A stretch of DNA of 64,000 bases from Hymenobacter convexus. Lineage in GTDB: Bacteria; Bacteroidota; Bacteroidia; Cytophagales; Hymenobacteraceae. The stretch lies in contig NZ_JAUQON010000001.1 in the NCBI RefSeq assembly GCF_030580955.1, positions 124,001-188,000 of the forward strand, given 5' to 3'. Numbering within the stretch: position 1 is the first letter of the stretch; each line of letters begins with the position of its first letter. The position numbers and the translations under genes are program-made. The notes below the pieces were generated by a model, which saw nothing but the letters and a program-made list of their open reading frames with translations, was not told the origin of the DNA and searched no databases. Below, one piece after another: positions 49,834-57,821 of the stretch.

Positions 49834-50925
49834 TTACAGCGCCTCGAACTGCCGCAGGAAGCGCATGTCATTCTCCGTGAACAGGCGCAAGTCCTTAATC
49901 TGGTACTTCAGCATAGCAATGCGCTCGATGCCCATGCCCCAGGCGTAGCCGGAGTATTTCTCGGAGTCGATGCCCGCATTTTCGAGCACGGCAGGGTCCA
50001 CCATGCCGCAGCCGCCGATTTCGACCCAGCCCGAGTATTTGCAGATGTTGCAGCCCGCGCCCTTGCAAATGAGGCAGGTGATGTCGATTTCAGCGCTGGG
50101 CTCGGTGAAGGGGAAGAAGCTGGGGCGGAAGCGGATGTTGATGTCAGCCCCGAACAGCTCCTGCACGAAGTAATACACCGTCTGCTTCAGGTCGGCGAAG
50201 CTCACGCCCTCGTCGATGAAAATACCTTCCACCTGATGGAACATCATGTGCGCGCGGGCCGAAATGGCCTCGTTGCGGAATACGCGGCCCGGCATGACGC
50301 GGCGGATGGGCAGCGGCTCGGTTTCCATCACGCGCACCTGCACTGTGCTGGTGTGGGTGCGCAGCAGGTGGGGCAAATTGGGCACACCGGTGGCGGCATC
50401 GCCGGTGGCGTCGGCGTCGGCCGCCCCAGCCGCGTGCGACACCGGAGCCACGAAGAAGGTGTCCTGCATGTCGCGCGCCGGGTGGTTTTCGGGGAAGTTG
50501 AGGGCGGTGAAGTTGTGCCAGTCGTCCTCGATTTCGGGCCCCTCGGCCACGGCGAAGCCGATGCGGGCGAACACGCGCAGCATCTCTTCGCGCACCAGGC
50601 TCAGGGGGTGGCGGGTGCCCAGGGCGTTGGGCACGGGGGGCAGGGTGTAGTCGAAGTCAGGATTGGCGGGGGCGTTGTCGGCGGCGGCTTCGGCGGCCTG
50701 CTGGGCCTCGTCGAAACGGGCCTGGGCCTGCTGCTTCAGGGCGTTGAGCTGCTGGCCCACGGCGCGCTTCTCCTCGTTGGGCACGGTCTTGAGCTGGTCG
50801 AACAAATCGGCCAGCTTACCCTTGCGGCCGAGGTAGCTGATGCGAAAAGCATCGAGTTCGGCGGGATTATTCAGTTCGGCTTTCGTAATTTCGGCCGTAA
50901 GAGCGGCAATGGATTCCTGCATCAT
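49834..50925 (-). CDS. pheS: Phenylalanine-tRNA ligase alpha subunit
   Basis: Charges tRNA-Phe together with PheT. The 363-residue product has the N-terminal coiled coil, motif 1-3 regions of class II synthetases (HPLSLVREEML, RTHTSTVQVRVM, GRVFRNEAISARAHMMFHQ, GMGIERIAMLKYQIKDLRLF), and ends FLRQFEAL. About 20 residues rich in Ala, Asp and Gly (SHAAGAADADATGDAATGVPN) are inserted before RTHTS compared with the usual sequence. A perfect TAACTTTGC box ends 6 nt before the ATG at 50923-50925. The frame remains open upstream but that is antisense to the next gene. pheT is not in the window. Confidence 0.96.
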   Translation of the reverse strand: MMQESIAALTAEITKAELNNPAELDAFRISYLGRKGKLADLFDQLKTVPNEEKRAVGQQLNALKQQAQARFDEAQQAAEAAADNAPANPDFDYTLPPVPNALGTRHPLSLVREEMLRVFARIGFAVAEGPEIEDDWHNFTALNFPENHPARDMQDTFFVAPVSHAAGAADADATGDAATGVPNLPHLLRTHTSTVQVRVMETEPLPIRRVMPGRVFRNEAISARAHMMFHQVEGIFIDEGVSFADLKQTVYYFVQELFGADINIRFRPSFFPFTEPSAEIDITCLICKGAGCNICKYSGWVEIGGCGMVDPAVLENAGIDSEKYSGYAWGMGIERIAMLKYQIKDLRLFTENDMRFLRQFEAL

Positions 50926-50931
50926 AGGCCG

Positions 50932-50939
50932 CAAAGTTA
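50932..50939 (-). promoter_or_regulatory. -7 box TAACTTTG directly before pheS
   Basis: Minus-strand TAACTTTGC, perfect to consensus, with 6 nt (CGGCCT counting from the box end) to the ATG. Implies a leaderless or nearly leaderless transcript. Confidence 0.65.
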
Positions 50940-51034
50940 CGGCAAGGGCCCGGCCCTGGCCGAACGATTCACCAACACATTCAGTTACCGCAATTCTCGA
51001 TTCATCTTCCTTCATCATCCTTAAAGCCTTTGCC

Positions 51035-51676
51035 ATGAAACGTGCGCTATTTTTCTTGCTAATTCTCGGAGGAGTAGCTTCTTCCGCCTCGGCCCAAGCC
51101 GGCTGGGATACCGGTGGCTGGGATACCCCCAAAAAAGCCCCCGCCAAGAAAACCACCACCAAAACCAACGCCGCGGCCACCAGCACCAAAGGCACGGCCA
51201 GTGGCGGTGCCACGCCGGCCGCTGCTGCCCCCGCGCCCGAAGCCGCTCCCTCGCTGGAAGCCGCCGCCGCCGCTGCTCCCGCCGCCGATAAAGGCTTCGG
51301 TGGTGCCGGCGCCGCCACGCCGAGCAGCGCCAGCATTGGCCAGGGCATCTCGGTAGCGCCCGGCGCGCCGGTAATGATGCGCGGTGGTCGCCACGTGATG
51401 GAAGACGACGCCATTGCCGCCCGCGAGCGTCGCCTCAACCGCAAGCCCCGCCGCGAGAAGCCCTGGCCGCCCCGCCCCACTGAGGCTGCTGTAGTTGCCG
51501 CCCCCACCCCGGCTGCCGCCGCAGCCGCTGAGCCCGTCCCGGCTCCGGCTGAGGCCACAGTCGGCACGGGTGCCACCGCTGCCAAAGGCGGCAGCGCCAC
51601 CGCCGACAAAGGCCCGGCGAAGGCCCCTGTGAAAGCGGCTCCCAAGAAAAAAGCTCCCGAACCCCTCGGTTGGTAA
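51035..51676 (+). CDS. Secreted Ala/Pro/Lys-rich low-complexity protein with APGAPV core (family member 1)
   Basis: A 213-residue exported protein (signal peptide MKRALFFLLILGGVASSASA). The mature chain begins WDTGGWDTPKKAPAKKTTTK, is dominated by Ala, Pro, Lys and Thr, and is predicted disordered. In its middle is a short ordered-looking core SIGQGISVAPGAPVMMRGG followed by a basic helix ERRLNRKPRREK. The same core recurs in the next three genes. It ends APEPLGW. Divergent from pheS. Lys/Ala-rich repeats resemble histone H1 tails, but the signal peptide points outside the cytoplasm. Function unknown. Confidence 0.75.
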   Translation: MKRALFFLLILGGVASSASAQAGWDTGGWDTPKKAPAKKTTTKTNAAATSTKGTASGGATPAAAAPAPEAAPSLEAAAAAAPAADKGFGGAGAATPSSASIGQGISVAPGAPVMMRGGRHVMEDDAIAARERRLNRKPRREKPWPPRPTEAAVVAAPTPAAAAAAEPVPAPAEATVGTGATAAKGGSATADKGPAKAPVKAAPKKKAPEPLGW

Positions 51677-51975
51677 GCTGATAAGCCTGCATTTGTTTTT
51701 GAATAGCACGGCCCGGTTGTTCCACGCTTCTGCGTGGGGCAGCCGGGCCGTTTGGCGTTGGCTGGGAAGTCAGAAAAGTTTCTGAACGGGCCGCGACCCT
51801 ATTCTTACATCGCTCGAACGACCTCCGAACGGTATCAGGAAAAGGTAAATGTTTAGCGCAATGGCGTACCGAGCGGCAGGGTTTAGCGTATGCCCAGCAC
51901 GACGGTACCGCCCGGGAGCGCGCTGCTCCGGGAGCATCGGAAGCCGTTTTTCTTTCACCCCTCACCACCCTTTTC
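51677..51975. other. 299-nt intergenic region
   Basis: Contains the hairpin at 51709-51750, a GGGAGCGCGCTGCTCC palindrome near 51915, and no credible ORF or TAnnTTTG box for the next gene. Confidence 0.5.
51709..51750. terminator. Nested hairpin, probable terminator
   Basis: CGGCCCGG pairs with CCGGGCCG and encloses an inner hairpin CCACGCTTCTGCGTGG; a short T run follows. It lies 32 nt after the member 1 stop codon. Confidence 0.6.
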
Positions 51976-52344
51976 ATGCTGCGTTCCTTGCTTTCCGCCC
52001 TGCTCGCGCTGGCCATCGTCGCTGAAGCGGCGGCCCAGTCGGCGCCCGCCACCAAAACGACCAAAGCCAAAACCACCAAAACCGCTACCCGCACCGCTAC
52101 CACGCGCAACACCACCATGAAGCCGGCGTCGGCCCGAACCGCGCCTAATTCGGGCGGCCGCAACGACATCGGGCCCGGCGGCAATGGCGCTGTAGGCTCC
52201 ACCGAAAGCGCCGATGGCAAGGGCCAAAGCGTGTACGCCGCCCCCGGCATGCCCGTCAATGTCGACAACCCCAAGAAGGTGCAGGGCTACAACGGGCCCG
52301 CCCCCGCCCGCACCAAAAGCCGCACCACGCTCACGCCGCGATAA
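51976..52344 (+). CDS. Secreted Thr/Lys-rich protein with APGMPV core (family member 2)
   Basis: A 122-residue exported protein. Signal peptide MLRSLLSALLALAIVAEAAA; then a Thr/Lys/Arg tract (TKTTKAKTTKTATRTATTRN), a Gly/Asn-rich part (GGRNDIGPGGNGAVGSTESA) and the core GQSVYAAPGMPVNVDNPKKV near residue 85, ending in a basic tail ARTKSRTTLTPR. The signal peptide is nearly the same as that of member 3 (MLRSFLTLALSMFLLAEASA), which shows duplication. Followed by a terminator-like hairpin. Function unknown. Confidence 0.75.
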   Translation: MLRSLLSALLALAIVAEAAAQSAPATKTTKAKTTKTATRTATTRNTTMKPASARTAPNSGGRNDIGPGGNGAVGSTESADGKGQSVYAAPGMPVNVDNPKKVQGYNGPAPARTKSRTTLTPR

Positions 52345-52368
52345 AACCTTGGTGTTGGTCGAGACAAT

Positions 52369-52410
52369 GACCCGCTTGGTATGCATTTGCATGCCGGGCG
52401 GGTCTTTTTT
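52369..52410 (+). terminator. Hairpin terminator
   Basis: GACCCGC with GCGGGTC as outer stem and GGTATGCAT with ATGC as inner pairing, followed by T6. It lies about 25 nt after the member 2 stop codon. Confidence 0.7.
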
Positions 52411-52512
52411 GGAGCGGAAAATGCGCGGATGAAAAAGTTGGCACGCCTTTGGAATATGTCCATACAGCTACGGTAATCAATTTTTCTTCACTTCCGCCAT
52501 TTCATTTCAGCC

Positions 52513-52923
52513 ATGCTTCGTTCGTTCCTCACCCTCGCCCTGTCGATGTTCCTGCTGGCTGAAGCTAGCGCCCAAACCACCCCGGTTGCTTCGACCAAAA
52601 AGACCACCAAAGCCGCAAAAGTAGCGGCCCGCAAAGCCAAGAAAGCCCGCCGCGTTGCTGTGAAGTCGGCCCCGGTGGCGCCCCTCAACGACGGCTGGCC
52701 CCCCATCGAAAACAACACCCAAACCGCCGTGGCCTCGAACGACGGCTGGAACTCGGCCGAATCGGTTCTTCCGGCCAGTTCCTCGCGCGGCGAAATCGAC
52801 AACCAGAACATCTCGGCCGCGCCCGGCATGCCCGTGCACGTTCGCACCAGCAACGGCCTGACTCCCTACAGCGTGCGCCCGGCCCGCAAGCCCGCCGCCA
52901 CCCAGACCACGCTCGGCAACTAA
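52513..52923 (+). CDS. Secreted Lys/Ala-rich protein with APGMPV core (family member 3)
   Basis: A 136-residue exported protein. Signal peptide MLRSFLTLALSMFLLAEASA; then a basic Lys/Ala tract (TKKTTKAAKVAARKAKKARR), two NDGW words (LNDGWPPIE, SNDGWNSAE), the core QNISAAPGMPVHVRTSN near residue 102, and LTPYSVRPARKP, which reappears in member 4 as LTPYSTRGPRKV. The signal peptide and core align with member 2, the tail with member 4. Probably periplasmic or surface located; function unknown. Confidence 0.76.
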   Translation: MLRSFLTLALSMFLLAEASAQTTPVASTKKTTKAAKVAARKAKKARRVAVKSAPVAPLNDGWPPIENNTQTAVASNDGWNSAESVLPASSSRGEIDNQNISAAPGMPVHVRTSNGLTPYSVRPARKPAATQTTLGN

Positions 52924-52971
52924 CAGTACCTGACCCTGGGTTTTGCCCATAAGTCCAGCCGGCGGCCCGCT

Positions 52972-52979
52972 TACTTTTG
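52972..52979 (+). promoter_or_regulatory. Possible -7 box TACTTTTG ahead of member 4
   Basis: Perfect TAnnTTTG match with TTTG at 52942-52945 upstream (spacing 26, longer than usual). It would give a leader of about 120 nt for the gene at 53108. Confidence 0.4.
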
Positions 52980-53107
52980 CATCGGCTCCTCTTTCATGCC
53001 ACTATCCGCCCCGGGCAGTTGTGCGTATGAAGGGGAGCCGATTCGCTTTCGGCCCGGCTTCGGCTGCGCCCGTTGCGGTTGAATTACCCCATTTTTTTCT
53101 CCCCAAT

Positions 53108-53485
53108 ATGATTCGCTACATTTTCGCATCGTTGCTGCTGCTGGCAGTAGCCGCCACGGACGCCGCGGCCCAGTCGCGCGGCAAAAAACTGACTCCTTAC
53201 TCCACGCGCGGCCCGCGCAAGGTGAAGACGACCGTCAAAATCAATCCACACACTGGTAAGCCTTACGGCGCCGGCGTGCCCGAAGACATCAAAAACGGCT
53301 CGATGTACCTAGCCCCGGCCACGCCCATGCGCCGGCAGGTAGGCTACACCAACAACGGTGGCTACAACGACAACCGAACCCCGCGCCCCCGCTACACCAA
53401 GCCCGCCAACAGCTCCCTGAGCCGCGACAGCAACCTGCCCACCGCGCCGGCCTCGAAGACGAAGGTGAAGACCAAGCGGAAGTAG
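53108..53485 (+). CDS. Secreted basic protein with APATPM core (family member 4)
   Basis: A 125-residue exported protein. Signal peptide MIRYIFASLLLLAVAATDAAA; then SRGKKLTPYSTRGPRKVKTT, a degenerate core NGSMYLAPATPMRRQVGYTN, a Tyr/Asn/Arg-rich segment and a basic tail KTKVKTKRK. The mature protein is strongly basic. The ATG at 53108 is chosen for the signal peptide; the frame is open about 165 nt further upstream without support. Last of four related genes in the same orientation. A family 1 repeat follows. Confidence 0.74.
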   Translation: MIRYIFASLLLLAVAATDAAAQSRGKKLTPYSTRGPRKVKTTVKINPHTGKPYGAGVPEDIKNGSMYLAPATPMRRQVGYTNNGGYNDNRTPRPRYTKPANSSLSRDSNLPTAPASKTKVKTKRK

Positions 53486-53499
53486 ACGCTAGGCAATAA

Positions 53500-53599
53500 A
53501 AGAACGTCATGCTGAGCGTAGCCGAAGCATCTCTACCGCAGTAGTAATTATTTACTCTTGCGGTAGAGATGCTTCGGCTACGCTCAGCATGACGTTCTT
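53500..53599. repeat. Palindromic repeat, family 1 (perfect)
   Basis: Arms AGAACGTCATGCTGAGCGTA GCCGAAGCATCTCTACCGCA with an exact complement around a loop of about 20 nt. Between family member 4 and the M16 peptidase gene, both of which point toward it. Confidence 0.95.
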
Positions 53600-53625
53600 G
53601 GTTTTAGGCTGAACAAACAAGTCCG

Positions 53626-54888
53626 CTATTCTGCCTCAACCAAGTCCTCTTGCGGCACGGCTTCGTAGTACAGTGTGCTGCAATTCTCCGGGCGCAGTAC
53701 TTCCTGGGCGGCGGCGCGCACGCTGGCCACGGTCACGGCCTGGATGCGGCGGCTTTCGTCGTTCACCAGGTTGGCATCGCCTTGTAGCTTGCTGTAGGCC
53801 AGGTTCAGGGCGCGGTTCAGGAGGTCGATTTCGCCGAAAACCAGGCTGCTTTCGGCCTGGTTTTTTACTTTTTCGAGCTCCTGGGCGTCCACGTCGGCGG
53901 TTAGGAATTCGGCCACCACGGCCTCCACGGCCGCATCGGCGGCTTTGAGGTCGACGCCCGCGTTCAGCTTGCCACTGATGACGAGCAGGCCGGGGTCAAG
54001 TGAGCCGGTGAGCGAGGCCGAAATATTATTGAATAAGGCCTGCTCCTTCACCAGACGCTGGTGCAGGCGGGCCGACTTGCCGTGGCCGAGCATGTCGCTG
54101 AGCAAATCGACGGAGTGGTAGCGGGCGTCGCCGCGCGCGGGCATGTGGTAGGCCTTGTAGAGGGCCGACAGCGGCACCGGCGCCGAGGCCGTGCGGTGGC
54201 GGGCTTCGGTCTGAACGGGCTCCTGGGGGAGCTGGCGCTGGTAGGCCGGGCCGCCGGGAATGGGGCCGAACCACTTCTCGGCCAGGCGGCGCACCTCGGC
54301 CGCGCTGGCCGCGCCGGCCACCACCAGAATGGCGTTTTGGGGCGCGTAGTGCTTTTGGAAAAAGCCGCGCACGTCGTCCATCACGGCGTTTTCGATGTGC
54401 GAAATTTCCTTGCCGATGGTGTTCCACTGGTAGGGGTGGGTGTGGTAGGCCAGGGGCTTGAGCTGCAGCCACACGTCGCCGTAGGGCTGGTTGAGGTAGC
54501 TCTGCTTGAACTCCTCGACCACCACTTTGCGCTGCACTTCGAGGCCGTTTTCGGAGAAGGCCAGGTTCAACATCCGGTCGGATTCCAGCCAGAAGCCGGT
54601 TTCGAGGTTGGCCGCGGGCAGCGAGAGGTAATAGTTGGTGATGTCGCTGGAAGTGAAGGCGTTATTCTCGCCGCCCACGCGCTGCAGCGGCTCGTCGTAG
54701 CTCGGAATATTCACCGAGCCCGAAAACATCAGGTGCTCAAACAGGTGCGCGAAGCCGGTGTGGTCGGGGTCCTCGTCGCGCGAGCCCACGTCGTACATCA
54801 CGTTGAGCACGGCCATGGGCGTGGAAAAATCTTCGTGGACGATGCAGCGCAGGCCGTTATCGAGGGTGAATTCGGTGAAGTGAATCAC
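53626..54888 (-). CDS. M16 family zinc metallopeptidase
   Basis: A 420-residue pitrilysin-type peptidase. The inverted zinc motif HLFEH (His48, Glu51, His52) is followed by the distal glutamate in VVVEEFKQSYLNQPYGD (about 125-140), and residues 180-400 form the inactive-type second half (YAPQNAILVVAGAAS, DLLSDMLGHGKSARLHQRLV). The size fits a single two-domain subunit. No signal peptide is visible, so it is cytoplasmic or exported by another route. It starts at GTG. Bacteroidota often have two M16 genes side by side; here only one. Confidence 0.93.
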   Translation of the reverse strand: MIHFTEFTLDNGLRCIVHEDFSTPMAVLNVMYDVGSRDEDPDHTGFAHLFEHLMFSGSVNIPSYDEPLQRVGGENNAFTSSDITNYYLSLPAANLETGFWLESDRMLNLAFSENGLEVQRKVVVEEFKQSYLNQPYGDVWLQLKPLAYHTHPYQWNTIGKEISHIENAVMDDVRGFFQKHYAPQNAILVVAGAASAAEVRRLAEKWFGPIPGGPAYQRQLPQEPVQTEARHRTASAPVPLSALYKAYHMPARGDARYHSVDLLSDMLGHGKSARLHQRLVKEQALFNNISASLTGSLDPGLLVISGKLNAGVDLKAADAAVEAVVAEFLTADVDAQELEKVKNQAESSLVFGEIDLLNRALNLAYSKLQGDANLVNDESRRIQAVTVASVRAAAQEVLRPENCSTLYYEAVPQEDLVEAE

Positions 54889-55001: not shown

Positions 55002-57821
55002 TTAAAAGCTGGCCCGCACCCCCAGCAGCCAGGTACGGGGCACGGGGTAGAGATTGGTGTCGTAGCCGGCGGCCAGCAAGGTGGCGCCCCCGCTGCTCAC
55101 GTTGGGGTCGAAGCCGCGGTAGCTGGTGAGCACGAACAGGTTTTGGCCGCCCACCCACACGCTGACGGGGTGGGGGCCGGTAGCCGGGCGCAGGGCGTAG
55201 CTGAAAGTTGCCTGGCTCAGGCGCAGGTTGGCGGCCGACTGCAGCTGGGCGTCGTCGTAGCGCGGAGTGCCCCCGACGGCACTGGCCGGCGAAGCGCCGG
55301 CTTGCGGAATATCGGCATTGTAATAGGTCGGTGTCCAGCGGTCGAGCAGACGGGTGGTCCCGTTGTTATAGCCTATCGGCAAGTCCAGCGTGGCCAGTGT
55401 GGTGTTGAGCAGCTGATGCCCGGCCTGCGCATCGAGCTGGAAATCGAGTCCGAAACGGCCCAGACGCAGGGTTTGGCCGAAGGTGTAGAGCTGGGTGGGC
55501 AGCGCCGTGCCCTGGTAGCGGGCATCGACATCTGTGATGTACCCGTTGCTGTTGTCGAAGTCCTGGTAGCGGAGCGTGCCGGCGATGGATTGCCCACGGG
55601 CATCCGTAGCGCCCACGGGCGGCACCGGCAGCCGGTGGTAAAGGAAATAAGGGTGCGGCGCCTCTCCTGCCAGCAGGCCGGGCACGCTGCCGGCACCCGC
55701 CAGCTCGGCCACGGCCGCCACGCGCTGCTGCTGCCAGGTGGCGGCCAGCCGGCTGCTGCCACTGAAATTGCCCTTCTGCCAGCGGCCGCTGATGCCCAGC
55801 AGCAGGCCCTGGTTGCGCAGCGCGGCCTCGCGGGGCTGCACCAGGGTGCCGAAGCCCGTGCCCGTGGCCAGCACCAGCATCTGGGGCACGGTGATGTGGG
55901 CCGTATTGCGGCGAAAAGCGGTAACATCGATTCCCAATCGGTCTTGCCAGAAGCCCAGGCTCAAGCCGGCTTCCAGCTGGGTGGTGCGGGGCGCGGGCGG
56001 CACCGGCGCCGACGAGTACAGCGTGCTCACGGTTTGGCCCGGGCCCAGCCGGATGTAGTCCGACGACACGCCGCTGCCCAGGCCGGTGGCGGGCAAGCTG
56101 GTGGTACTGGTTTGGCCCAGGCTGGCCCACAGCGTGGCGGTGCTGAGCGGGGTAAAATCGGCCAGAAAATGCTCCTGGTTCAGGTGCCAGCGCACTTCGC
56201 CTCCCGGCAGCCAGGCGGGCGGCACTTCGGCCAGGAAGAAGGCCGTGGCGCCCTGGCCAGCATCGCGGCGCACCGACGCCAGCACCTCGTAGCGCCCGCG
56301 AAAGGCGTAGGTAGCCCCGAGGCCAATGTTGGCGAATGACGTGGTGGCATCGGTGCTGTAATCTGAAGCGGTAGCGTAATCGTGGTAGGTGCCGGCCGTG
56401 CCCCGCAGGTAGCGCTGGTAGCCCGCGCTAAGGGTGAGGCCCACGCGGTGGGCCTCGTTGAAAGTATGGTCGTAGCCCAAGCGCAGCTGGGCCACGGTAG
56501 CCGAAGTGGGTAGGCGCAAGGTGCTGCTGGCCGTGGCGGTGGGCGTGTAGGGCTGGCCGGTGGTCACCAGAAAGTGGGTGTCGTTGGCCACGCGGGCTTC
56601 TTCGCGGCTCAGGCTGCCGCTGAGCAGCAGGTCCGGCCGTAGCGTGTACTCGGCCCCGACCTGCACCAGCAAGCGGCGGGTGCTGATGGCCGTGCCGTCG
56701 GTGGTGGCCAGGTCCAGCGGGTTGCGGGTGTTACCAAAAAAGCCGTAGTTCTGGAAATTGCCGCGGGCGTCGTACACGCCCACCGTGGGCGGGGCCAGCA
56801 GGGCCTGGGCCACCGTGCCCGGTACCGGCAGCGCTTGGCTGATGGACGCGGCCGAGGCATTGAGAAACAGCCGCAGCTGGGCGCCCACCTGCTGGTCGAG
56901 GTTGAGGCGCAGGGCGTAGCGGTCGAGACGGGAATGCACCACCACGCCCTCCTGGTTCAGGTAGTCGGCGCTGATGGCGTAGCGGGTACGCCCGCCGCTG
57001 CCGTCGAGCGTGAGGTGATGGTTTTGGAGCAAGGCCGTGCGGAAAAGCTCGCGCTGCCAGTCCGTTTCCGGCGCGATGGGGCCGCTGAGCGGGTAGGCCA
57101 CGATGCCGCCCCCACCCACGCGCTGGGAAGCCTCATTGGCCAGGTCGGCATACTGACGGGCATTCAGCAGGTCGTATCGTTGGCGCACCTGCTGCACGCC
57201 GCCAAAACCGGCGTAGCTCACCCGAAGGGCCTGTTTTCGGCCTTTGAGGCCGCCACGCTTCGTCGTGATTTCCAGCACGCCGTTGCTGCCTTGCGCGCCG
57301 TATTGGGCCGCGGCCACGCCGCCCGAAATCACCCGGATGCTGCTGATGTCCTCCATGGGCAGGGCCAGCAGCGGGTTGGCCCCGGCGCGCGTGGCTTCAG
57401 GCCCGCTGCTGAATGGAAAAGCGGCCCGAATAGATACGCCGGGTTCAAAATCGGCATTCAAAGCCGGCACTCCGTCTACAACCAAGAGCGGCTGGTCGGG
57501 GCTGGCGAGGCTGCTCCCGCCCCGAATGCGCACCGTGCTCCAGTCACCGGGCGCGCCGGAATTGGGCGTTACCTGCACCCCGGCCACCTGCGGGAGCAGC
57601 GGCTGCAGGGTCAGAAAAGGCGCTGCCTGCCAGGGGGCGTAAACGGTAATGCTTACCGGGTTGCAGCTGCATCTGAACTGCGGCCCCAGCAGCGAGTCGA
57701 GCGGCGGCGGCGGTGCCAGCGCCAATGCGGCCCGACGAGGTGGCAGCGCATCGAGTGGCTCCTGCGCGTAGGCCGCAGTGCTGAAAGCCAGCAAAAAAGT
57801 AAGGGTTAAAATTCGGTTCAT
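55002..57821 (-). CDS. TonB-dependent receptor, SusC/RagA-like, without the regulatory-like N-terminal domain
   Basis: A 939-residue outer-membrane receptor. After the signal peptide (MNRILTLTFLLAFSTAAYAQ) a short segment with a CSC motif (FRCSCNPVSITVYAPWQAA) takes the place of the usual carboxypeptidase-regulatory-like domain. The plug domain follows (VRIRGGSSLASPDQPLLVVD, DISSIRVISGGVAAAQYGAQ, GSNGVLEITTKRG), and then the barrel, ending LGVRASF. Plug wording (GxSSL, GxxGSNGVxxITTK) is SusC/RagA-like, but no SusD gene is adjacent. The ATG at 57819-57821 is used; the frame runs much further upstream only as antisense of the glycosyltransferase gene. Confidence 0.9.
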   Translation of the reverse strand: MNRILTLTFLLAFSTAAYAQEPLDALPPRRAALALAPPPPLDSLLGPQFRCSCNPVSITVYAPWQAAPFLTLQPLLPQVAGVQVTPNSGAPGDWSTVRIRGGSSLASPDQPLLVVDGVPALNADFEPGVSIRAAFPFSSGPEATRAGANPLLALPMEDISSIRVISGGVAAAQYGAQGSNGVLEITTKRGGLKGRKQALRVSYAGFGGVQQVRQRYDLLNARQYADLANEASQRVGGGGIVAYPLSGPIAPETDWQRELFRTALLQNHHLTLDGSGGRTRYAISADYLNQEGVVVHSRLDRYALRLNLDQQVGAQLRLFLNASAASISQALPVPGTVAQALLAPPTVGVYDARGNFQNYGFFGNTRNPLDLATTDGTAISTRRLLVQVGAEYTLRPDLLLSGSLSREEARVANDTHFLVTTGQPYTPTATASSTLRLPTSATVAQLRLGYDHTFNEAHRVGLTLSAGYQRYLRGTAGTYHDYATASDYSTDATTSFANIGLGATYAFRGRYEVLASVRRDAGQGATAFFLAEVPPAWLPGGEVRWHLNQEHFLADFTPLSTATLWASLGQTSTTSLPATGLGSGVSSDYIRLGPGQTVSTLYSSAPVPPAPRTTQLEAGLSLGFWQDRLGIDVTAFRRNTAHITVPQMLVLATGTGFGTLVQPREAALRNQGLLLGISGRWQKGNFSGSSRLAATWQQQRVAAVAELAGAGSVPGLLAGEAPHPYFLYHRLPVPPVGATDARGQSIAGTLRYQDFDNSNGYITDVDARYQGTALPTQLYTFGQTLRLGRFGLDFQLDAQAGHQLLNTTLATLDLPIGYNNGTTRLLDRWTPTYYNADIPQAGASPASAVGGTPRYDDAQLQSAANLRLSQATFSYALRPATGPHPVSVWVGGQNLFVLTSYRGFDPNVSSGGATLLAAGYDTNLYPVPRTWLLGVRASF

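Follow-up and report, generated by a model that had tools for sequence, protein, structure and literature searches.

Mussel-foot and other coacervating adhesive proteins combine Lys-rich spacers with scattered aromatic residues. The anionic disordered domain of LbpB (PMC11022072) is secreted, highly charged and of low complexity, has no rigid tertiary fold, and condenses with molecules of opposite charge. In the Bacteroidetes, the substrates of Sec export and signal peptidase I (SPI) follow a Q-rule, i.e., Gln occupies position +1 after the SPI cut (PMC10653852; PMC5837995). Here, we analyze four consecutive plus-strand genes, M1 to M4, in a 64,000-nucleotide stretch of Hymenobacter convexus DNA (contig NZ_JAUQON010000001.1, positions 124,001 to 188,000; hereafter, the window), whose products bear some likeness to each of these systems. 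Their signal peptides end in AxA/Q, where the slash marks the cut, as do those of the Q-rule secretome; this is a general export feature, however, rather than a family, and is silent on the role of a protein after export. As with the LbpB domain, the proteins are exported, of low complexity and highly charged, but the LbpB domain is negatively charged and belongs to a larger protein, whereas M1 to M4 are positively charged, free-standing and equipped with a sequence module. We claim no homology. The resemblance to mussel-foot proteins is one of composition only, and a match of M2 to the Pfam family New_glue (PF21827; 18.2 bits, E 0.0021) lies below the cut-off of 31, with none for M1, M3 or M4 at E up to 1.

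M1 to M4 belong to an unnamed, lineage-specific family of small exported proteins that is found in Hymenobacter and in a second genus of the Hymenobacteraceae. The original prediction for this DNA described four exported proteins, of the lengths given in Table 1, that belong to no described family. The coordinates agree, and the database searches bear out the second statement, with no match of M1 to M4 above the curated cut-offs of Pfam and NCBIfam, nor in PHROGs at E up to 0.01. The 28 rows of a module alignment (A1, see below) matched no Pfam family above cut-off, whilst 22 M4 relatives searched against NCBIfam gave two chance-level matches, each to one member (best E 0.0053). One scan of Protein Data Bank (PDB) sequences returned a single chance-level match (E 0.84) and a second returned none. 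No description of the family was found in the literature on the Hymenobacter secretome, small secreted proteins and biofilm matrix proteins, nor anything fitting in that on disordered Lys-rich Bacteroidetes proteins. Domain libraries can easily overlook exported proteins that are small and disordered; here, an unannotated family with a precise motif grammar (a module plus two C-terminal classes) occupies a fixed locus across a genus known for dry, cold and irradiated habitats, and its fixed place and selection provide a handle for experiments.

The four open reading frames (ORFs) are real genes under purifying selection. Using our own Nei-Gojobori script, the ratio of non-synonymous to synonymous substitution rates (dN/dS) was determined against four congeners (G024, G049, G038, G011) of the nine aligned, and was 0.12, 0.13, 0.21 and 0.25 for M1, 0.10, 0.15, 0.30 and 0.33 for M2, 0.06, 0.11, 0.11 and 0.26 for M3, and 0.07, 0.08, 0.17 and 0.26 for M4. 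In M1 and M2, the dN/dS of the core did not exceed that of the rest of the mature chain in any of the four comparisons. The proposal of a rapidly diverging family, duplicated in place around a retained core, holds for the place and the core, with the fast divergence confined to the linkers rather than spread over the whole protein.

Relatives of these genes were found across the genus. M3 alone as query matched 26 of the 61 genomes of the genus, counting that of the window, although at least one of the 26 (G057; E 0.006, away from pheS) seems to be a chance match. When named genomes were scanned with an M3 alignment, 25 loci were obtained, all in Hymenobacter. As such homologues carrying the core exist and purifying selection acts on the genes, the two observations that had been named as telling against the family, i.e., missing homologues and unconstrained ORFs, are both contradicted. 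pheS was found in 60 of the 61 genomes and 59 of these places were fetched, G036 being left out for a partial pheS match at a contig end. Three fetched stretches (L040, L053, L072) end early, without the M16 peptidase gene, and were left out of the interval counts. All 56 complete pheS-M16 intervals, 0.9-2.9 kb in length, contained between one and four family members (one in 4 intervals, two in 22, three in 23 and four in 7), in keeping with the synteny next to pheS and an M16 peptidase that had been put forward for checking.

The A1 profile matched 43 of the 61 same-genus genomes. At E up to 0.01, it matched 89 of 204 genomes of the bacterial family, in two of six genera, and at E up to 0.001, with 20 candidates scored per genome, 36 of 390 genomes of the order, in two of 129 genera. 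The profile fails to detect even the genome of the window, so that eroded relatives in other genera may have been overlooked. In the second genus, a gene of the b type and one of the c type lie between pheS and the M16 gene in all four fetched genomes, and within approximately 6 kb upstream of pheS in eight of eight fetched genomes of three other genera, there was no tblastn match to M16 or to M1 to M4. The locus was therefore probably set up in the common ancestor of the two genera, with transfer as the alternative.

The module of the family spans approximately 25 residues, APG[MFL]-x(8-11)-TDYxGRP, and reads APG[MFL]...TDYxGRP[LIV][KR] in most species examined. Within A1, residues A8, P9, D22 and Y23 are invariant. 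Beside M1, M2-like, M3 and M4, we distinguished G1, G2, a, b and c types amongst the members; the a type has two module copies (18/18), G1 and b have one, and c has one in 20 of 24 by the strict pattern. In the window's clade, no strict TDYxGRP occurs in M1, M2-like, M3 or M4. The 10-residue core noted previously, whose four strings are present verbatim, is indeed retained, but its length has to be revised, given that it looks like the eroded front half of the longer module and apparently is its remnant. The M3 core, for example, runs APGMPVHVRTSNGLTPYSVRPARK and aligns with APGMPINQVGHGVSTDYNGRPLYR of the congener at L055. The string LTPYS, which M3 and M4 had been thought to share as a family link, is probably a coincidence because its place differs, downstream of the core in M3 but upstream in M4, and because the orthologues mostly read VPYS (M3) and IAPYS (M4) in its place.

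The likeness of the cores exceeds chance. Core-to-end profiles of M2 and M3 orthologues, in which the TTL tail is contained, gave a 98% match. Against the module profile, the M1 to M4 core profiles each outscored 60 of 60 column-shuffled versions. The latter result was the same with or without two faulty rows of A1 that agree exactly with no fetched locus, i.e., row 22, whose first residue deviates, and row 8, which appears to be a mix of two neighbouring species. A1 with both rows underlies the genome profile scans, the Pfam and PDB scans and the first profile comparisons; only the profile comparisons were redone without them. The probabilities were 89% for M3, 78% for M2, 55% for M1 and 29% for M4 with the faulty rows, and 86% (all 32 columns), 70%, 60% and 13%, respectively, without them. 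When five G1 rows were also removed, they were 18% for M3, 9% for M2 and 39% for M1, each reached by one of 60 shuffles, and 30% for M4, reached by none of 60. G1 itself (VSVAPGMPINQVGHGVSTDYNGRPLYR) matched the module profile without G1 rows at 97.5%, and was matched by M3 at 96.6%, M2 at 95.7%, M1 at 82% and M4 at 72%, these comparisons including the C-terminal tails except for M1. The score of the G2 core alone was reached by two of 60 shuffles at first, and by two and 17 of 60 on repeat. M3 relatives of H. caeli and H. nivis, reading APGMSVHIRTGHEMDNYDGTPRK, form a further intermediate. Judged by these profiles, M2 and M3 connect to the module through the G1 chain, their direct link without G1 being marginal, whereas M1 and M4 are tied to it less surely (probabilities of 13-60% over short alignments).

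Two further features, C-terminal classes and Trp pairing, were absent from the original prediction. Gene calling by regular expressions yielded 155 interval candidates, a few of them out of frame (e.g., L047 1548, L072 1431). For the class counts, 20 candidates without AxAQ were dropped and, from the 135 remaining, five "other" members (one ending in Trp, four with the TTL motif) were left out to give 130 typed members. A terminal Trp was present in all M1 (13/13) and c (24/24) members, none of which had the TTL motif, and the GW ends of M1 resemble those of the c type from other species. The TTL motif, [STN][TS][LIM][STGANP] in the last 32 residues, was detected in M2-like (11/11), M3 (13/13), M4 (11/11), G1 (11/11), G2 (13/14) and b (15/15) members, i.e., in 74 of the 75 members of these types, as compared with 4-11% of shuffled tails. 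All M1, M3, G1, a and c members contain Trp, as opposed to one of 51 M2-like, M4, G2 and b members. A Trp-bearing and a Trp-free member occurred together in 45 of the 56 intervals, a count that mis-starts some genes (L042 M2, L093 b) and so assigns them the wrong Trp class.

Export and charge are likewise common to the family. AxAQ was present in 135 of the 155 interval candidates. Mature M1 to M4 have a pI of 10.1-11.1 and no Cys, and A, K, T, P, G, S and N make up 65-75% of their residues; amongst the 130 typed members, 92% have a pI above 9. AlphaFold, run with 22 sequences each, gave a mean pLDDT of 60.7 for M4 and 53.7 for M3, with a pTM of 0.17 for each, and predicted nothing more than the signal helix, a basic helix at residues 30-51 of M3 and a four-residue helical turn in M4. 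This low confidence fits disorder in M3 and M4, short of proving it.

Because of their export, charge and predicted disorder, we tentatively consider M1 to M4 to be Sec-exported disordered polycations of the envelope or matrix that dock via the module to a partner, a reading to which we give slightly less than an even chance; the genes, their selection, export signals, motifs and synteny are observed, and the disorder is predicted. SPI would cut after AxA to leave Gln at +1, which would become pyroglutamate by the Q-rule. The mature chains, basic (pI of about 10-11), Cys-free and probably disordered, may then reach the periplasm, surface or matrix, where their Lys/Ala/Thr/Pro linkers would bind envelope or matrix polyanions whilst the module and C-terminus dock on a cell-surface partner. 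Trp-bearing and Trp-free members might act jointly as a multivalent component of the envelope or matrix. Polyanion binding, an envelope scaffold and a ligand role towards a partner had been proposed originally as possible roles; of these, the charge and the predicted disorder would fit polyanion binding and the ligand role.

Several findings weigh against this reading. The link of M1 and M4 to the family depends less on the module than on their position, export and tail. The a type is mildly basic (median pI 9.0) and mixed in its C-terminus, with a Trp end in 12 of 18 members and the TTL motif in eight of 18. The AlphaFold input comprised 22 close relatives per protein, so that low confidence does not prove disorder. 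The core is not everywhere the most constrained part of the chain, with a core dN/dS of 0.26 (rest 0.13) for M4 against G038 and, against G011, of 0.58 (rest 0.26) for M3 and 0.47 (rest 0.18) for M4. Finally, 11 of the 56 intervals are without a Trp-class pair; some of these are gene-calling misses and some look real. Amongst the unpaired, L093 reflects a mis-cut signal peptide, and at L075, L079 and L086 the profile shows a module match beyond the called genes. In G008, G016 and G030 (L081, L073, L070), where the interval has no Trp-free gene, a Trp-free copy lies elsewhere, as it does in G004, whose fetched stretch ends early.

An extended form of the polycation proposal, which we regard as improbable, is a two-class multivalent surface system in which Trp-ended and TTL-ended disordered polycations, their docking modules being related, would be sorted or captured by two different receptors and would form condensates with polyanions of the cell itself. 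Were this true, Hymenobacter and one related genus would possess an envelope or matrix layer specific to them, the stickiness of which would be tuned by paralog number and module erosion. We know of no precedent in the Bacteroidota for C-terminal classes of this kind as sorting or docking signals.

The main rivals to a docking polycation are a periplasmic accessory factor and a peptide precursor. Bam or PDZ proteins recognize aromatic residues at the C-terminus, and strict C-terminal classes in every type but a, together with Sec export, would suit periplasmic accessory or assembly factors (e.g., for outer-membrane proteins or polysaccharide export) whose Trp or TTL tail docks on a PDZ-like or Bam-like receptor; such machinery is not present in the pheS-M16 interval, however, and we consider this role unlikely. 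Prepropeptides, whose module would be excised at the basic flanks and set free as a peptide for signalling or antagonism, would account for the signal peptide, for a conserved short module, single or double (the latter in the a type), within variable linkers, and for the basic residues that follow it (TDYxGRPLKK). Against this, the C-terminal ends are conserved too, which is needless in a simple carrier, and the neighbourhood of the genes shows no obvious exporter or processing enzyme, its M16 gene being convergent and, by eye, without a signal peptide; we thus think it quite unlikely. Drift of the linkers in sequence and length with their composition kept, and a core no more constrained than the rest in some comparisons, could also point to exported low-complexity proteins of this lineage that have no specific partner and are maintained for their composition alone, but near-invariant module and C-terminal residues across types, together with the conserved locus, call for a specific constraint and leave this with little probability. 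Spurious ORFs in GC-rich DNA, a notion prompted by the long antisense ORFs that overlap the genes, can be dismissed with near certainty on the sense-frame dN/dS of 0.06-0.33 and on signal peptides conserved across species.

Table 1. Features of the M1 to M4 locus, in window coordinates.
Feature	Position	Strand	Description
M1	51035..51676	+	213 aa; signal peptide, GW-rich N-end, Ala/Pro/Lys linkers, core GISVAPGAPV, C-terminal GW
Core of M1 (GISVAPGAPV)	51344..51373	+	S106, A108, P109, G110, P112 invariant in 20 sequences
C-terminal Gly-Trp of M1	51668..51673	+	invariant in 20/20 aligned sequences
M2	51976..52344	+	122 aa; signal peptide, Thr/Lys linker, core, C-terminal TTLTPR; Trp-free
Module of M2 (SVYAAPGMPV ... 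GYNG)	52228..52296	+	hhalign to G1 95.7%
C-terminal TTLTPR of M2	52324..52341	+	T118, L119 invariant in 17/17
Likely terminator after M2	52369..52404	+	16-pair stem then T6; strongest of five terminator-like sites
M3	52513..52923	+	136 aa; signal peptide, basic segment 30-51 predicted helical, two [ND]GW motifs, full-length module, C-terminal QTTLGN
Module of M3 (NISAAPGMPVHVRTSNGLTPYSVRPARK)	52807..52890	+	hhalign to G1 96.6%, to genus module 86% over 32 columns
C-terminal QTTLGN of M3	52903..52920	+	T133, L134 invariant in 22/22
M4	53108..53485	+	125 aa; signal peptide, core SMYLAPATPM...GGYNDN, NSSLS motif then Lys-rich tail; Trp-free
Possible module of M4 (SMYLAPATPMRRQVGYTNNGGYNDNRTP)	53300..53383	+	hhalign to G1 71.8%, to genus module 13-30%
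NSSLS motif of M4	53408..53422	+	counted in TTL-motif tally
pheS, divergent left flank	49834..50925	-	Pfam tRNA-synt_2d; same flank in fetched loci
M16 peptidase, convergent right flank	53626..54888	-	Pfam Peptidase_M16 and M16_C; in 56/59 fetched stretches

M3 is probably transcribed apart from M2, given the 16-pair stem and six T after M2, although the overall number of terminator-like sites in the region is at the level of chance (five found versus 4.9 expected). A sigma-70 promoter scan of 50900-53650 found none. The Bacteroidetes promoter consensus TAnnTTTG occurs within 320 bases upstream of M4 only, and there without TTG 18-22 bases before it. An operon with pheS or the M16 gene was rejected, these lying on the opposite strand.

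The gap between M4 and the M16 gene holds, at 53500-53599, an almost perfect inverted repeat whose arms are 41 bp long (DNA fold of -58.2 kcal/mol, z -20.4). Its arm occurs at seven places in the window, its own included, and gave at least 82 strand-matches at approximately 40 places genome-wide, with 40 of 705 candidates scored. The repeat is REP- or MITE-like and may serve as a shared terminator; an origin of the genes from it was rejected, as it is present at many other places. A TonB-dependent receptor gene (Plug domain) at 55002-57800 of the window adjoins the M16 gene, and in the second genus a gene that is alike by eye follows M16 (L203 2688-5438). Beside pheS in six of the eight fetched genomes of other genera of the family (L195-L198, L200, L201), the genes resemble, by eye, those for a TetR regulator, a TolC-like protein and efflux.

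Copies of the family also occur off the locus, with no fused domain in the open frames read. The Trp-free members amongst them at L142, L144 and L146, from same-genus genomes, read EGIYVAPGMTGAPKQQV[TM]TDYDN[QN]PLK and EYVAPGMSGAP...TDYNNQPLKK, and a small exported gene with [IV]SP[VM]PGVVLPTG lies approximately 3 kb (L142, L144) or 2 kb (L146) away.

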